A DNA stretch of 64,000 nucleotides from Rhodoplanes serenus (GTDB lineage: Bacteria > Pseudomonadota > Alphaproteobacteria > Rhizobiales > Xanthobacteraceae), in contig WNKV01000001.1 of the NCBI GenBank assembly GCA_009720755.1, positions 186,001 to 250,000 of the forward strand, written 5' to 3'. Below, piece after piece: positions 9,249 to 14,886 of the stretch. Below the pieces are notes generated by a model, which saw only the letters and a list, made by a program, of their open reading frames with translations, was not told where the DNA came from and did no database searches. The first letter of the stretch is position 1. Each line of letters starts with the position of its first letter. A program made the position numbers and the translations under genes.

Positions 9249-9268
9249 CTATAGCGCAACGAATATAG
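9249..9268. promoter_or_regulatory. ModE-box-like palindrome upstream of the DUF2478 gene
   Basis: CTATAGCGCAACGAATATAG is an inverted repeat CTATA-N10-TATAG of exactly the same length as the core of the site at 12449-12472 and shares the CAACGA segment of its spacer. It ends ten bases before the ATG at 9279, so a bound repressor would cover the -10 region or start point. ModE boxes of E. coli have TATATA half-sites in the same arrangement; ModE binding here is an inference. Confidence 0.55.
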
Positions 9269-9278
9269 GATCGCCGGC

Positions 9279-9863
9279 ATGGCGACGACCGTGGCAGCCT
9301 TATCGCAAGCCCGTCCCGATACGCCGGCCGACATCGCCCCGATCGCGGCGGTGAGCGGGGCGGCGGGTTCCGTGGTGCAGGCGGTGCTGGCCTCCTTCGC
9401 GGCGCGGCGCGCCGCCGAAGGGCTGCGGGTGGTCGGCCTCGTCGAGGAGGCGGTGTGCGGCAACGGCACCTGCGACGGCCTGTTCCTGCGCGATCTCACC
9501 GATGGCCGGCGGGTGTCGATCAGCCAGGACCTCGGCCCCGGCTCCACCGCCTGCAATCTCGATCCGGGCGGCCTCGCGGCCGCCTGCGCGCTGGCCCAGG
9601 CGGCAATCGCGGCCGGCGCCGACCTGGTGATCCTGTCCAAGTTCGGCAAGCAGGAGGCGGACCGGCGCGGTCTCACCGAGGCGTTCCAGGCCGCCATCGC
9701 GGCCGATCTGCCGGTGGTCACGGCAGTAGCGCCGCCCCTCGCCGACGCCTGGGCGGCGTTCGCCGGCCCGCTCGCGACCCCGGTGACGGCCGACGCCGAG
9801 GCGCTGGAGGTGTGGTGGCGGCGCTACCGCGCCGGCCAGGACGGAGCCGCCGGGGCGGGCTGA
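9279..9863 (+). CDS. DUF2478 protein, linked to molybdenum genes
   Basis: A 194-residue soluble protein of the DUF2478 type. Its N-terminal strand-loop-helix AAVSGAAGSVVQAVL looks like a degenerate P-loop, and a later segment LVILSKFGKQEADRRGL resembles the Walker-B part of THEP1-like nucleotide phosphatases. Between them is CGNGTCDGLFLRDL with two cysteines. Homologues tend to occur near molybdate transport genes; no activity is known. It is convergent with the ABC operon, overlapping the ATPase gene by 40 bp, and has its own ModE-box-like site, which suggests joint control with that transporter. Confidence 0.75.
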   Translation: MATTVAALSQARPDTPADIAPIAAVSGAAGSVVQAVLASFAARRAAEGLRVVGLVEEAVCGNGTCDGLFLRDLTDGRRVSISQDLGPGSTACNLDPGGLAAACALAQAAIAAGADLVILSKFGKQEADRRGLTEAFQAAIAADLPVVTAVAPPLADAWAAFAGPLATPVTADAEALEVWWRRYRAGQDGAAGAG

Positions 9864-10624
9864 CGGCCCGGCCGAATCTGCGGCCTCTCGGGCTGGCCGG
9901 GCTCGCCGTGGCGCGCCAGCAGGGCGGCCCGCACGGCCGGGGTGTCGAGCAGTGCCGCGGCGGCCCGGTGGATGGCGGCGGGCGACGCCTCCGGCCGCGT
10001 CCGGACATCGTGGACCACGCGGGCGGGACGCCGCGACAGCACCACCAGCCGGTCGGCCATCCGCACCGCCTCGGTGACGTCGTGGGTGACGAACAGCACG
10101 GCGGCGCCGTCCCGGTCTACCGCACCACGAACGAGGTCCTGGAGATCACGGCGCAGGCCGACGTCGAGGGCCGCGAAGGGCTCGTCCATCAGCACCAGAT
10201 CGGGCTCCACCACCAGGGCGCGGGCGATCGCGGTGCGGCCCTGCATGCCGCCCGACAGCGCGGCCGGCCGCTTGCGCAGATCGGCCGTCGAGAAGCCGAG
10301 CCGGCCCAGCAGGGCGGCGGCGCGCCCCCGCCGCTCCGCCGGCGCCACCCCGCGAGCCGCCAGCGCGAAGGCGACATTGTCGAGCGCCGACCACCACGGT
10401 AGCAGGCGCGGCTCCTGGAACACCACGGCGGTGCGGGCGAAGCGGTTGACGACGCGCCCGGTGGAGGGCGCCGCGAGCCTGGCGGCGAGCCGCAGCAGCG
10501 TGGTCTTGCCGCAGCCGGACGGGCCGAGCAGCACGACCAGCTCGCCGGGCGCCACCGCGAGATCGAAGCCGGCGAGCACCGGCCCGTCGGCATAGCGAAG
10601 CCCCACCCGCTCGAACCGCAGCAT
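9824..10624 (-). CDS. NitT/TauT-type ABC transporter ATP-binding protein
   Basis: A 266-residue ABC ATPase: Walker A GPSGCGKTT (about 34-42), Q-loop FQEPRLLPW, signature LSGGMQGR, Walker B LVLMDEP, and switch His in FVTHDVTEA. The FQEPRLLPWW motif is typical of the SsuB/TauB/NrtD group rather than of ModC, and there is no TOBE domain after the ATPase. It is the last gene of an operon (binding protein 11419-12402, permease 10628-11419) and starts three bases after the permease stop. The ModE-like operator upstream of the operon suggests an oxyanion such as molybdate or tungstate as substrate, but this is inference. Confidence 0.9.
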   Translation of the reverse strand: MLRFERVGLRYADGPVLAGFDLAVAPGELVVLLGPSGCGKTTLLRLAARLAAPSTGRVVNRFARTAVVFQEPRLLPWWSALDNVAFALAARGVAPAERRGRAAALLGRLGFSTADLRKRPAALSGGMQGRTAIARALVVEPDLVLMDEPFAALDVGLRRDLQDLVRGAVDRDGAAVLFVTHDVTEAVRMADRLVVLSRRPARVVHDVRTRPEASPAAIHRAAAALLDTPAVRAALLARHGEPGQPERPQIRPGRQPAPAAPSWPAR

Positions 10625-10627
10625 CGC

Positions 10628-11419
10628 TCACCCCGCCGCCGACACCGGCCCGGACGGTCGCCGCGCCGACAGAAGCCGCCGCAACGGCGCCAGCAGCAGG
10701 CCGTCGCAGACCAGCAGCACCGCCACGACCAGGAGAATCCACGCCATCGTCTCGACCAGATCGAGATGCGCCCGCGCGGTCGCGATCCGGCCGCCGATGC
10801 CGACGCCGCCGCCCAGCACCTCGGCCATCACGGCCACCTTGAAGGCGAGCGCCAGCGCAGTGGCGAGCGCCGGCAGCAGGTGGTCGAGGAGCTGCGGCAG
10901 GATCAGCATGCGCAGCCGCAGCAGCAGCGGCGCGCCATACACGGTCGCCATCTCGCCGAGCCGCGGATCGCGGGCCGCGAGCCCCTGGAACGCCGCCGCG
11001 AACACCACCGGCACCGCCGTCATCAGCACCGTGAAGGCGGGGGCGCCGCCGCGCGGGCCGAACCACAGCAGCGCCAGCACCACCCAGGCGATCGGCGGCA
11101 CCCCGAGCGTCACGGTGACGACAGGCCGCAGCGCCGCGCCGAGCGGGCCGACGAGACCGCCCGCGATGCCGAGCCCGGCGCCGATCAGCGCCCCGGCCAG
11201 CCAGCCGCCGAGCGCATTGCCGGCGGTGACGGCGAGCGCCGGCCAGGCGTCGCCGTCGGCCAGCAGGGCGGCGAGCCGCACCCCGGCCTCGGCCGGTGCC
11301 GGCAGCACGAACGGCCCGAAGGCGCGGTGGCCGGCTTCCCAGGCGAGCCCGAGAGCCAGCAACCCGAGCCCGCCCCAGGCGAGCGGCGCCGCCCGCCGCG
11401 CCATCGCTCCTGCGGCCAT
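10628..11419 (-). CDS. NitT/TauT-type ABC transporter permease
   Basis: A 263-residue inner-membrane permease with about six helices and the BPD_transp_1 coupling loop (EMATVYGAPLLLRLRMLILPQL), as in SsuC and TauC. The start ATG at 11419 shares its A with the TGA of the binding-protein gene, so translation is probably coupled; ATG 11404 is an alternative start. It pairs with the ATPase immediately downstream. ModB-type permeases have a different length and coupling sequence, so this is not the classical molybdate permease. Confidence 0.9.
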   Translation of the reverse strand: MAAGAMARRAAPLAWGGLGLLALGLAWEAGHRAFGPFVLPAPAEAGVRLAALLADGDAWPALAVTAGNALGGWLAGALIGAGLGIAGGLVGPLGAALRPVVTVTLGVPPIAWVVLALLWFGPRGGAPAFTVLMTAVPVVFAAAFQGLAARDPRLGEMATVYGAPLLLRLRMLILPQLLDHLLPALATALALAFKVAVMAEVLGGGVGIGGRIATARAHLDLVETMAWILLVVAVLLVCDGLLLAPLRRLLSARRPSGPVSAAG

Positions 11420-12402
11420 CACAGGTCGAGATAGAAGGCGTCGTCGGGCAGCCGCCCCCCGAGCGCGTCGGGCGACAGCGCCAGGATGGCGCCGTAGAAG
11501 GTCTCCAGCTCGTCCTTCAGGGCCCGGGCCGAGACGGCGTCGACGTTGAAGTGGGCGAGCGACCGCTCGAACAGCGGCGCCTTGGTGGCCATGGTGCGCT
11601 CGGCCAGCGCGGCCGCCTCGCCGCGGTTGGCCAGCACCCAGTCCTTGGCGGGCACGAGCCCGGCCCGCAGCGCCGCGACCAGCGCGGGCGCCTCGTCGAT
11701 CAGGCTCTGATGCAGGGCGACGCCCGCCATCGGGATGCGCGGCCGGCCGAAATGCCGCCCCCACTCGGCCTGGAGGCTGACGGCGCGGCGCAGGGTGCGA
11801 CCCTGCTGCTGCGCCATGGCGATCGCGGCGGTCGCCGACGGCTCCGACAGGATGGCCGTCGCGGCACGGCCGGCGGCCAGCATCTGGGCCGCCTCCATGG
11901 CGGTCTGGGCATAGGTCAGGGTCATGTCGCGATCGGGATCGAGCCCGTCGCGCCGCACGAGGGTGCGGAAGACGAGGTCCGGCATGTCGTTGCGGAAGAA
12001 GCCGACGACGGGCCGGCCGCGCAGGTCGGCGAGCGCGCCGATCCCCTCCTCGGCGGTGACGATCGACAGATGCCCCATGCTGAGCACGCACAGGAGCCGC
12101 ATCGGCAGGCCGCGATTGGCGAGATTGGCGGGCACATGGGTCGGCGTGGTGATCAGGCGCGAGCGGCCCGACACCAGGCCGGCACGCAGCTCGTCGGCGT
12201 CGCGCCACAGCCGGAAGCTGGCGCCGGGCGCCGCGGCGGCGAGCCCGCCGCTCTCCAGCAGGCGCACCAGCACGATGGTCGAGGCATTGGGGGCGCCCAG
12301 GATCTCCAACCCCTCGACCGGGCGGGCGAGGCTCGGCCGGCCGAGCGCCAGGGTCGCGGCACCGGCGGCGCCGCAGGCGAGAAGGCGTCGTCGCGTCAGC
12401 AT
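11419..12402 (-). CDS. NitT/TauT-type ABC substrate-binding protein
   Basis: A 327-residue protein with a short signal peptide (TRRRLLACGAAGAATLALG; the two-Arg start is Tat-like but lacks the full motif). The mature protein has the NMT1/SsuA-like two-lobe pattern, with NASTIVLVRLL near the N-terminus and LRGRPVVGFFRNDMPDLVFR leading into lobe 2. It is unlike ModA, which is shorter and has a different oxyanion pocket. It is the first gene of the ABC operon, 46 bp downstream of the palindrome at 12449-12472. The ligand is unknown; molybdate, tungstate, or a Mo-related or sulfur-containing organic compound are all possible. Confidence 0.85.
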   Translation of the reverse strand: MLTRRRLLACGAAGAATLALGRPSLARPVEGLEILGAPNASTIVLVRLLESGGLAAAAPGASFRLWRDADELRAGLVSGRSRLITTPTHVPANLANRGLPMRLLCVLSMGHLSIVTAEEGIGALADLRGRPVVGFFRNDMPDLVFRTLVRRDGLDPDRDMTLTYAQTAMEAAQMLAAGRAATAILSEPSATAAIAMAQQQGRTLRRAVSLQAEWGRHFGRPRIPMAGVALHQSLIDEAPALVAALRAGLVPAKDWVLANRGEAAALAERTMATKAPLFERSLAHFNVDAVSARALKDELETFYGAILALSPDALGGRLPDDAFYLDL

Positions 12403-12448
12403 GGTGTTCGATCGTCCACAAAAGCTGTGGGCGGACCGGGGTCCGCCG

Positions 12449-12472
12449 TCCTATATACACAACGATATAGGA
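12449..12472. promoter_or_regulatory. ModE-box-like palindrome upstream of the ABC operon
   Basis: A perfect 8-bp inverted repeat TCCTATAT-N8-ATATAGGA. Its core CTATAT-N8-ATATAG is the same length (20 bp) as the site at 9249-9268 and shares CAACGA in the spacer. The TA-rich half-sites resemble E. coli ModE boxes. It lies 46-70 bp in front of the binding-protein ATG and overlaps a plausible -10 region, as expected for a metal-repressed promoter. The HTH-only ModE encoded at 14368 is the obvious candidate regulator. Confidence 0.65.
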
Positions 12473-12560
12473 TTGACAGCCGCGGGAGAAGCCCGACATG
12501 CGCGCCGGGAGGCCGGGCGGGACGATGCGCAGGACCATCGGGGCGAGCGATCAAACGCAA

Positions 12561-12586
12561 ACGGCCCGGGGCGAGGCCCGGGCCGT
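12561..12586 (-). terminator. Hairpin terminator after mop
   Basis: A perfect 10-bp stem ACGGCCCGGG / CCCGGGCCGT with a six-base loop. Read leftward, the stem is followed by a T-rich stretch (GTTTGCGTTTG), so it would terminate transcription from the Mop gene ending at 12641 and insulate the ABC operon promoter. Confidence 0.65.
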
Positions 12587-12640
12587 CCGTCATCTCGACA
12601 TGATCGCGTCGTCTGGACGATCGCGTCGCGCCAATCCGGT

Positions 12641-12847
12641 TCAGCGGACGCCGATCATCACGTCGGACGCCTTGATGACCGCGCAGGCGGTCTGGCCGAC
12701 CGCGAGACCCAGCTCCTCGACCGCCTCGTTGGTGATCGCCGCCGTCACGACGGCGCTGCCGATGTCCAGGCGAACATGGGCCGTGGTGGCCCCCTTCCGG
12801 ATCTCGACGACCTTGCCTTCGATCACGTTGCGGGCGGACAGCTTCAT
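12641..12847 (-). CDS. Mop-type molbindin
   Basis: A 68-residue single TOBE/Mop-domain protein, MKLSARNVIEGKVVEIRKG to KASDVMIGV, the length and pattern of Clostridium and Rhodobacter molbindins. These form hexamers that bind molybdate or tungstate and act as oxyanion stores or buffers in the cytoplasm. The start ATG at 12847 is preceded by GAGGT. It is divergent from modD (13027) and lies upstream of the ABC operon on the same strand, separated by a terminator hairpin. No ModE-like box is seen in the 179 bp between mop and modD. Confidence 0.92.
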   Translation of the reverse strand: MKLSARNVIEGKVVEIRKGATTAHVRLDIGSAVVTAAITNEAVEELGLAVGQTACAVIKASDVMIGVR

Positions 12848-13026
12848 GGCAGTACCTCGACGAACAATACGAGCCCCTGCACCATGCCGGGGCACGGCTT
12901 CCAATGTGTAGCGATCCGAGCCTAGCACACCAGAAGGTTGCCGTCGCCCACTTCTCCCCACTCCCACCGGCCATAATCGTTCTGCCCACCCCCTCGCCTC
13001 GTTCGCCGTCTCCCGGAGTCTTCCCC

Positions 13027-13923
13027 ATGCTGCCTGCCGCCTACGCGGACCACGCCCTCGACGCCCTGCTGGCCGACGACGTCCCTTTCGGCGACCTGAC
13101 CACCTGGGCGCTCGGCATCGGCGACGCCCCGGCCCGCATGACCTTCGCGGCCCGCGGCCCGATGGTGGTGGCGCTCTCCGAGGAGGCGGCACGGCTCATC
13201 GCCCGGCTCGGCGGCCGGGTCGATCTCATGGCGCGCTCGGGCACGGCACTCGCGGCCGGCGACCCGATCCTCACGGCGACCGGGCCGGCCGCTGTCCTCC
13301 ACCACGGCTGGAAGGTCGCCCAGACGCTGATCGAGATCGCCTCCGGCATCGCCACGACGACGCGGGCCATCGTCGACGCCGCCCGCGCCGTCGCGCCCGA
13401 CATCGCCGTGGCCGGCACCCGCAAGACCGTGCCGGGTGCCAAGGCGCTGTCCGTCAAGGCGCTGATGGCCGGCGGCGGGGTGCCGCACCGGCTCGGCCTG
13501 TCGGAGACCGTGCTGGTGTTCGCCGAGCACCGCCGCTTCCTCGCCGACCTCGCACCGGCCGACATGGTGGGGCGGCTGCGCCGCACCGCGCCCGAGAAGG
13601 CGATCGTGGTCGAGGTCGCCACCGTCGACGAGGGCGCCGCCTGGGCGACCGCCGGCGCCGACGTGATCCAGGCCGAGAAGTTCGCGCCCGACGCGGTGGC
13701 GGCGCTGGTCGAGCGGCTGCGCCAGACGGCGCCGCGCGTGGTCGTGGCGGCAGCCGGCGGCATCGGCCCCGGCAACGCCGCCGCCTATGCGGCGGCGGGC
13801 GCCCGGGTGCTGGTCACCTCGGCGCCCTGGACGGCAGCGCCGCGCGACGTCGCCGTCCATCTCGGGCCGCCAGCGGCGGCAGCCCCGATCGGCTTCGTGC
13901 GGCCGGGCGGCAACGCTCCCTGA
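13027..13923 (+). CDS. modD: ModD, quinolinate-phosphoribosyltransferase-like molybdenum protein
   Basis: A 298-residue NadC-family protein. The N-terminal part has the DDVPFGDLTTWALGIG motif of ModD, and the barrel carries the phosphoribosyltransferase residues in VAGTRKTVPGAKALSVKALMAGGGVPHRLGLSE and ends with AAAGGIGPGNAAAYAAAGA. ModD occurs in molybdenum gene clusters of alphaproteobacteria and is required for normal Mo use in some, but its reaction is not established. The free TOBE gene follows 50 bp downstream on the same strand. ATG 13027 is preceded by CCGGAG. Confidence 0.9.
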   Translation: MLPAAYADHALDALLADDVPFGDLTTWALGIGDAPARMTFAARGPMVVALSEEAARLIARLGGRVDLMARSGTALAAGDPILTATGPAAVLHHGWKVAQTLIEIASGIATTTRAIVDAARAVAPDIAVAGTRKTVPGAKALSVKALMAGGGVPHRLGLSETVLVFAEHRRFLADLAPADMVGRLRRTAPEKAIVVEVATVDEGAAWATAGADVIQAEKFAPDAVAALVERLRQTAPRVVVAAAGGIGPGNAAAYAAAGARVLVTSAPWTAAPRDVAVHLGPPAAAAPIGFVRPGGNAP

Positions 13924-13973
13924 CGGACGACTGGAGTCGCGGGGCTGGCGCGCTTCTGGCATGGTGGCCGGCC

Positions 13974-14468
13974 ATGTCGACCGATGTCCTCTCCGCTCCG
14001 GCCGCCGCGCCGCCCGTCACGCTCGCCACCATGCTCGACGCCCGCGTGCTGCGGCACGATCCGGCGTGGGGGCTGTCGACCCTGCTGTTCGGCGACGGCG
14101 AGCTGCGGGTGCCGCTGGTCGCCGCCCCGGTCGACGCCGGCGTGCGGGTGACGATCGACGCCCGCGACGTCTCGGTGGCGCTGACGCGGCCCATGGACGT
14201 GTCGATCACCAACCGGCTGCCCGGCACCATCGTCGAGGTGGAGCGGCTGGCTCCGCCCTACGCGCGGGTGCGCTTCGACCTCGGCACCACGCGGCTCGAC
14301 GCCCTGGTGACCTGGGAATCGGTCGAGCGGCTGGCGCTGGAGCCGGGCTTGCGGGCGTGGGCGATGATCAAGTCGGTCGCGATCGGGAACGCCGCGGTTC
14401 GGCCGTCGGATCTGCCGCGGCGGCGCCCGTGGCCCGGGCCACAAACGCCGGATCGAGCGCCGCGGTGA
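13974..14468 (+). CDS. Free-standing ModC-type TOBE domain protein
   Basis: A 164-residue protein that matches only the C-terminal regulatory part of molybdate ATPases (ModC): a linker (about 17-60, DARVLRHDPAWGLSTLLFG), then RVTIDARDVSVALTRP, SITNRLPGTIVEVERLAPP, VTWESVERLALEPG and the end WAMIKSVAI. The whole ATPase domain is missing, and no Walker motif exists upstream, where modD is intact. It could bind molybdate as a sensor or store, or be a ModC remnant. The last 23 residues lie beyond the conserved domain, and the gene overlaps the convergent modE tail by 101 bp. Confidence 0.78.
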   Translation: MSTDVLSAPAAAPPVTLATMLDARVLRHDPAWGLSTLLFGDGELRVPLVAAPVDAGVRVTIDARDVSVALTRPMDVSITNRLPGTIVEVERLAPPYARVRFDLGTTRLDALVTWESVERLALEPGLRAWAMIKSVAIGNAAVRPSDLPRRRPWPGPQTPDRAPR

Positions 14469-14886
14469 GCTCGTCCAGGGTGCGGGCGCCGCTGCGCTGC
14501 GCCTGCCGCTCCAGCGACCGGTAGAGGGCGATCAGCCGCTCGCCGAACGCCGTGAGCGCGGCGCCGCCGCCGCGCCGGCCCGGGAAGGTCTCGACCGCCG
14601 GGCTCTCGAAGGTGTGGTTGAGGGCGTCCACCATCAGCCAGCACTTGCGGTAGGAGGTGCCGAGCGCCCGGCTGGCGCCGAGGATCGAGCGCACCCGCCG
14701 GATGGTCTCCAGGAGCCGGATGTCCTCGGGATCGAGGCGGCCGCCATTGCCGAAGGCCAGGCTCAACGCGATGGTGGTGGTGCAGGGGGACGCGGTGGCG
14801 ACTGCCGGCTGGGGCCGGACCGCGGCAGGCGTTTCGGCGGGCTCGCCCGCAGGCGTCTCGGGGGCCGTCGCGCCGATCTTGCTCAT
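14368..14886 (-). CDS. modE: ModE-type regulator with HTH domain only
   Basis: A 172-residue protein. After an unstructured Ala/Pro-rich N-terminus (about 1-45), residues 46-140 match the ModE winged helix: RRVRSILGASRALGTSYRKCWLMVDALNHTFESP, GRRGGGAALTAFGERLIALYRSLE. The two molybdate-binding TOBE domains of E. coli ModE are absent; the protein ends with about 30 low-complexity residues. Such one-domain ModE proteins are known in other bacteria and must sense Mo some other way or through a partner. It is convergent with the free TOBE gene, which is suggestive. ATG 14886 is chosen; upstream in-frame ATGs lack a ribosome-binding site. Confidence 0.85.
   Translation of the reverse strand: MSKIGATAPETPAGEPAETPAAVRPQPAVATASPCTTTIALSLAFGNGGRLDPEDIRLLETIRRVRSILGASRALGTSYRKCWLMVDALNHTFESPAVETFPGRRGGGAALTAFGERLIALYRSLERQAQRSGARTLDELTAALDPAFVARATGAAAADPTAEPRRSRSRPT

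Follow-up and report, generated by a model that had tools for sequence, protein, structure and literature searches.

A NitT/TauT-type ABC transporter operon preceded by a putative ModE box in Rhodoplanes serenus and related alphaproteobacteria

A stretch of 64 kb from Rhodoplanes serenus (GenBank assembly GCA_009720755.1, contig WNKV01000001.1, positions 186,001 to 250,000; hereafter the window, whose positions serve as coordinates unless a contig or locus is named) carries, between 9249 and 14886, an operon for an ATP-binding cassette (ABC) transporter among genes of molybdenum (Mo) metabolism. Gene families were assigned by searches with Pfam and NCBIfam (TIGR) models, and the features are collected in Table 1. 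The operon reads leftward from the gene of a periplasmic substrate-binding protein (SBP) through a permease gene to an ATPase gene, and all three products match their Pfam models above cut-off, as befits a NitT/TauT-type importer in one operon; the top NCBIfam model of the ATPase is a taurine-type one, with a score under the cut-off of that model. The SBP signal sequence contains an arginine pair of the twin-arginine (Tat)-like kind, which is invariant in 24 of 24 aligned rows. At its 3' end the ATPase gene overlaps the convergent DUF2478 gene by 40 bp. A terminator-like hairpin between mop and the SBP operon (12578-12563) gives no evidence of a terminator, as one site compares with a shuffled mean of 0.4. 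The family models bear out the gene list of a preliminary description of this DNA, namely DUF2478, the NitT/TauT-type ABC operon, Mop, ModD, a TOBE protein and ModE.

Table 1. Features of the molybdenum-associated transporter locus in the window (HTH, helix-turn-helix; pLDDT, predicted local distance difference test score of the structural model; aa, amino acids)
Feature	Position	Strand	Remarks
ModE-box palindrome CTATAGCGCAACGAATATAG	9249..9268	.	exact CTATA-N10-TATAG; 10 bp ahead of DUF2478 start codon
DUF2478 protein, 194 aa	9279..9863	+	PF10649, 2.5e-50
ABC ATPase, NitT/TauT kind	9824..10624	-	PF00005 (ABC_tran), 2.9e-25; GPSGCGKT and LSGG motifs in translation
ABC permease (BPD_transp_1), 263 aa	10628..11419	-	PF00528, 4.8e-13
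Periplasmic substrate-binding protein (SBP; NMT1_2), 327 aa	11419..12402	-	PF13379, 5.8e-8; model pLDDT 89
ModE-box palindrome, operon-ward CTATATCGTTGTGTATATAG	12451..12470	.	exact CTATA-N10-TATAG; 48 bp ahead of SBP start codon
Mop, 68 aa TOBE protein of molybdenum-pterin-binding type	12641..12847	-	TIGR00638, above cut-off
ModD	13027..13923	+	TIGR01334, 264.4 bits, above cut-off
Free TOBE protein, like C-terminal part of ModC without ATPase domain	13974..14468	+	TIGR02142 positions 233-352
ModE, 172 aa, HTH domain only	14368..14886	-	TIGR00637, 2.5e-19, residues 51-133

The two palindromes in Table 1 had been described as resembling ModE boxes. Both are exact, although the second starts at 12451 and not at 12449 as given there, and they are the only places in the whole window that fit CTATA-N10-TATAG with at most one mismatch, compared with a mean of 0.01 in 100 shuffles. 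The ModE consensus used for Geobacter, ATCGCTATATANNNNNNTATATAACGAT (PMC2700814), contains CTATAT-N8-ATATA, which has the same core and spacing as the window palindromes and fits them in register. Across the 5.5 Mb genome a search with at most one mismatch, as the preliminary description had proposed, found eight places, three of them exact, versus 12 for a reversed control pattern; the count is not enriched, and the evidence for a ModE box therefore lies in position and conservation. Four of the eight places precede DUF2478, the SBP gene, modB (C22:308448, on contig C22) and modA (C48:261212). Thus, as is expected of an operator of the ModE regulon, a consensus-matching site stands upstream of the transporter gene and is shared with modA and modBC, and it is also kept in 16 of the 17 orthologous loci treated below, so the likeness to ModE boxes holds. 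The other four places are C14:72259 (exact), one on C8, C11:126562 and one on C51; no recognisable Mo gene was seen there when the open reading frame starts were read, with a family search for one neighbour on C8. The palindrome on C8 (138008-138027, one mismatch) has the gene of an IhpA-like TolC-type protein in its vicinity and could be a further target or a chance match.

The preliminary description had the transporter standing instead of ModABC, a view that a complete modABC elsewhere with its own ModE box would contradict. Such genes are present. Just one protein of the genome passes the ModC-family cut-off (415 bits), and its gene lies outside the window on contig C22; modB is directly upstream of it, with a one-mismatch box about 86 bp before the chosen modB start. 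The modA gene is on contig C48 (194.9 bits), with a one-mismatch box 233 bp before the start of the model match. The idea that the organism has no ModABC was therefore rejected, and among the 17 genomes that carry the transporter (that of the window and 16 from the orthologue scan) both modB and modA are above cut-off in 17 of 17. The NitT/TauT-type system is therefore additional to ModABC; these results bear on the word "instead" and not on the Mo regulation of the operon. Boxes with at most two mismatches were found in 11 of the 20 modB loci of carriers that were examined (24 loci were fetched, with flanks of up to 1.5 kb). It is also evident that modA (C48:261212-262115) is unlinked from modBC (C22:306601-308467) in the window genome, each stretch having its own ModE box; the Rhodoplanes genomes G249 and G264 seem to be arranged likewise.

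Conservation of the box was followed in a scan with two strict peptide patterns, which divergent orthologues would escape. It found 16 loci that are 58-79% identical to the window transporter, and their hosts are Rhodoplanes, Blastochloris, 'Rhodovulum' PH10, Xanthobacter, Bradyrhizobium STM 3809 and an Acetobacteraceae metagenome-assembled genome (MAG). Within 250 bp upstream of the SBP gene, a palindrome with at most two mismatches is present in 16 of 17 loci (the window and the 16 orthologues), and the single locus without it, L102 of the Acetobacteraceae MAG, has only 138 bp of upstream sequence. When each upstream region was shuffled 200 times, the observed quality of the box was matched in at most 0.5% of the shuffles for 15 of the 16 boxed loci and in 9% for L101. 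At L101 the modA and SBP genes point away from each other and each has a box on its side; the scored place is the one toward modA, a second box with two mismatches being nearer to the SBP gene. The 16 SBP-proximal boxes have a near-invariant TATAT-N8-ATATA. By the same test, for which several start codons of both orthologues and paralogues were chosen by eye, none of nine regions upstream of paralogous SBP genes has a palindrome of fewer than three mismatches, and a scan of the whole paralogous loci agrees, with places of at most two mismatches only in L060 and L063, neither upstream of the SBP gene.

In several genera the boxed clade has Mo genes (modA, mop, modD, modE) around it or facing it, and L096 and L111 have a second box between modD and mop. 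Moreover, in nine of the ten Xanthobacter loci (the tenth is L101) none of the Mo genes listed for the neighbourhood test (ModA, ModB, ModD, ModE, Mop, TOBE, DUF2478 and YqeB, with ModC excluded) is found in the stretch examined, and the box is still upstream of the SBP gene; the box thus goes with the transporter itself. A ModE box also precedes a YqeB-like gene next to the same cluster in L096 (6653-7642) and L098 (6396-7529), with one and two mismatches; the gene is related to the family of selenium-dependent Mo cofactor maturation, with a score below cut-off, and a search of the window's first 30 kb did not find it.

In a tree of 36 SBPs (midpoint-rooted for drawing, with L108 left out and L102 labelled with the boxed group though no box was seen in the 138 bp used), the 16 orthologue rows form one group with 100/100 support on a long branch (0.8). 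The family is sparse: a profile of the four orthologues matched in 4 of 190 genomes of the class at 1e-30, and a wider profile in 10 of 398 genomes of the phylum at 1e-35, the genome of the window being counted in both. The matches in these samples other than its own are sister forms by their residues and do not belong to the boxed clade. At four positions of the presumed binding cleft, inferred from secondary-structure ends and the general fold, the boxed clade is constant with His89, Met109, His111 and Met225. His89 and Met109 occur in no other row compared; outside the clade His111 recurs in a single row, the long-branch G553, and Met225 in just two, G353 and G357. Eight sister rows mostly have Tyr89 (6/8), Trp109 (6/8), Leu111 (7/8) and Gln225 (7/8). 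The SBP model groups in fold with binders of small anions and cofactors, and the relatives by fold and profile are NrtA/CmpA, SsuA, PqqT and 3hn0.

The sister transporters have other neighbours. Outside the boxed group, an NnrS gene is part of the SBP-permease-ATPase cassette at 10 of 21 loci (L056, L057, L062, L063, L160, L175, L176, L177, L178 and L181), and UbiU, UbiV or NarK is nearby at 5 of the 21, whereas NnrS is found at none of the 17 boxed loci (for the window, in its first 30 kb). No paper linking NnrS with an ABC transporter, NMT1 or UbiV was found in the open-licence literature searched. The Rhodoplanes paralogue is divergent from a riboflavin synthase gene. At L060 (7166-12110), in a relative of the same family, a sister SBP-permease-ATPase set is beside an [FeFe] hydrogenase and an oxidoreductase of the pyridine-nucleotide-disulphide type; this neighbourhood had been considered for an aldehyde:ferredoxin oxidoreductase, a tungsten enzyme, which was rejected in favour of the hydrogenase and a pyridine-nucleotide-disulphide/glutamate-synthase-like oxidoreductase.

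Carriers of the boxed transporter are mostly equipped for nitrogen fixation. NifD is above cut-off in 15 of the 17 carriers, the two below being the genomes of L102 (the MAG) and L110 (Bradyrhizobium STM 3809), and in 17 of 60 relatives, four of these being carriers themselves and six of the same genus (the window genome counted). The share among carriers would agree with a demand for additional Mo, although the kinship of these genomes confounds the comparison. The window genome has a NifD match and, about 2.5 kb away, a 272-bit match that is presumably NifE. Three other carriers have matches of 342-365 bits apart from NifD, presumably AnfD or VnfD; because no match at this level was found in the window genome, a link to vanadium or an alternative nitrogenase was set aside for it.

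The regulator encoded at the locus departs from the full ModE architecture of an N-terminal HTH and a C-terminal Mo-sensing TOBE part. It scores 69.1 bits on TIGR00637, under the curated cut-off of 98.5, and only its HTH was found, with no TOBE domain, so Mo sensing would need another partner. Likely candidates for this partner are Mop and the TOBE protein whose gene overlaps that of ModE. These two overlapping genes converge, and their overlap recurs in L096, L098 and L110.

DUF2478 appears to be co-regulated with Mo genes in Rhodoplanes, judging from box positions. Among 30 DUF2478 loci scanned out of 36 matches, a box with at most two mismatches lies within 150 bp upstream of the domain in nine, seven of them in Rhodoplanes, a count that has no shuffle control. 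Mo genes (ModD, Mop, ModE or ModC) are near DUF2478 in 6 of 20 loci (L140, L141, L143, L148, L149 and L158). The structural model (pLDDT 84, four sequences) has a weak best fold match to 2i3b (E 4.4e-4, TM 0.5), the nucleoside triphosphatase NTPCR/THEP1, and no GK[ST] was seen by eye in the P-loop region. An accessory role in Mo handling is plausible. In the open-licence literature searched, DUF2478 was met only in a table row of a plasmid study. At L160 (7748-8158), one of the 21 sister loci, DUF2478 is directly upstream of a family member of the NnrS type, which means that the pairing of DUF2478 with the transporter exists outside the ModE-boxed clade.

The transporter shares with NrtABC, CmpABCD, SsuABC and TauABC the SBP fold and the permease and ATPase type, but differs from these NitT/TauT importers by the ModE box upstream of the operon. 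Its sister importers, such as the paralogue on contig C33 of the window genome, have the same order SBP-permease-ATPase and, in the closest, an SBP 36-43% identical; in contrast, the ModE box is absent from all nine tested, and NnrS is in the cassette at 10 of 21 sister loci and at none of the boxed ones. With ModABC it has in common that it is an ABC importer with the same regulator box; however, its ATPase reaches 109.5 bits on TIGR02142 (cut-off 285.05) with no TOBE match in the ATPase, and no ModA or ModB model is among the matches of the SBP (at 0.001) and the permease. Nor does it belong with WtpABC or TupABC, as the ATPase scores 121.9 bits on WtpC (cut-off 440) and the SBP has no WtpA or TupA match at 0.001. 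MolBCA is an importer of the BtuCD-like type. As reported for Haemophilus influenzae, it takes up molybdate by an ABC system other than ModABC, with lower affinity (PMC7759655), and is thus a precedent for molybdate uptake by ABC systems outside ModABC. PqqT of Methylobacterium, an SBP that binds the organic cofactor pyrroloquinoline quinone (PQQ) (PMC12124388), is among the nearest solved folds but only 17-21% identical to the window SBP. The closest system in logic is MorABC of Rhodobacter capsulatus: this nitrogen-fixing alphaproteobacterium has, next to ModABC, another Mo-repressed ABC transporter, and ModE-like regulators bring about the repression via Mo-boxes (PMC6925177). According to the same source, MorABC is clearly ModABC-like, its cargo is not settled, and MorA also needs NifA; that description sets it apart from the NitT/TauT-type system with an NMT1_2 SBP here. 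A survey of almost 5900 sequenced organisms recognises three prokaryotic ABC systems for Mo and tungsten, ModABC, WtpABC and TupABC, and states that additional uptake systems may exist (PMC6147048). No paper naming the window transporter was found in the open-licence literature searched, which does not prove that none exists; within the reach of these searches, the transporter is an undescribed combination of known parts.

Judging from the boxes, the SBP-permease-ATPase operon is very probably under ModE regulation, and this regulation gives a Mo species about an even chance of being its cargo. We propose that the operon encodes an importer that ModE represses and Mo starvation induces, and that works alongside ModABC, most likely on a Mo species; to this reading we assign a probability of roughly 0.5. 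The sequences show directly the gene content, the identity and conservation of the box, the ModABC genes and the grouping of the boxed clade, while repression, inward transport, the cargo and the part played by DUF2478 are matters of interpretation. When Mo is plentiful, Mo-charged ModE would occupy the palindromes before the SBP gene, DUF2478, modA and modBC and repress them, and under Mo shortage the SBP operon would be derepressed together with ModABC. The importer would then act in addition to ModABC, without replacing it, in bacteria that mostly have a Mo-nitrogenase, and DUF2478 would be a co-regulated accessory protein. The most economical cargo would be a Mo species for which ModABC is a poor carrier or no carrier, such as a Mo complex or thiomolybdate, or molybdate itself. 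Several observations weigh against this proposal. With a complete ModABC, the cell could in principle do without a second molybdate importer, and since nifD occurs in 13 of the 56 relatives without the boxed clade, Mo-nitrogenase does not depend on the transporter. Among the nearest solved folds, those whose ligands are known bind nitrate, bicarbonate, sulfonates or PQQ, and the sister members of the family are tied to NnrS, not to Mo. As for regulation, the genome-wide number of palindromes was rejected as proof because it does not exceed that of the reversed control, and a consensus scan near both boxes found no sigma-70 promoter, so that the repressor geometry is inferred from the closeness of the boxes to the start codons (10 and 48 bp). 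Moreover, deletion of MorABC is reported to have no effect on Mo-nitrogenase activity (PMC6925177), and Mo regulation therefore need not mean Mo import.

An alternative is an importer that is regulated by ModE but carries a non-Mo cargo needed when Mo is scarce, such as a sulfonate, a nitrogen source, a carboxylate or an organic cofactor, in the manner of its relatives that bind nitrate, sulfonates or PQQ. This reading is favoured by the relationship of the SBP to NrtA/CmpA, SsuA, PqqT and 3hn0 in fold and profile, by the ModABC already in the genome, and by the Mo-repressed importer of R. capsulatus, for which the published account gives no measurable role in Mo supply. It fits less well with the position of the boxed clade among or opposite modA, mop, modD and modE in several genera, with the presumed cleft residues His89 and Met109, which are in no relative examined, and with the lack of an AnfD- or VnfD-level match in the nifD family of the window genome, by which an alternative nitrogenase does not explain the need. 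We regard this explanation as a real competitor, though the less favoured one.

Two further explanations are much less probable. Tungstate can substitute for molybdate in ModE and ModABC systems generally, so one box would serve both, and the transporter might be specialised for tungstate, scavenging tungsten or discriminating it beside Mo. Its ATPase, however, is far below the WtpC cut-off, and its SBP finds none of the ModA, WtpA and TupA models at 0.001, which makes this improbable. More improbable still is that the boxes belong to the neighbouring Mo genes and the transporter is an unrelated bystander. In the window the box before the SBP gene is indeed also downstream of mop in a Mo gene cluster, but a box is directly upstream of the SBP gene in nine Xanthobacter loci that lack the listed Mo genes in the stretch examined, and modD and mop have their own second box in L096 and L111.

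If the proposal of a supplementary Mo importer is carried further, the transporter might represent a further class of Mo ABC importers beyond ModABC, WtpABC, TupABC and MolBCA. In this tentative and rather doubtful extension, a NitT/TauT-type system from an often NnrS-linked family would have come under ModE control in alphaproteobacteria most of which are diazotrophs, and constant His and Met residues would have reshaped its site to fit a form of Mo other than free molybdate, such as thiomolybdate or an organic Mo complex. An importer of a different ABC type under probable ModE control, conserved in owners of ModABC that mostly fix nitrogen, is a concrete and testable candidate for uptake. 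With a Mo complex or thiomolybdate as its cargo, it would reveal how diazotrophs exploit Mo beyond the reach of ModABC; with another cargo, it would reveal what else these cells need once Mo runs out.

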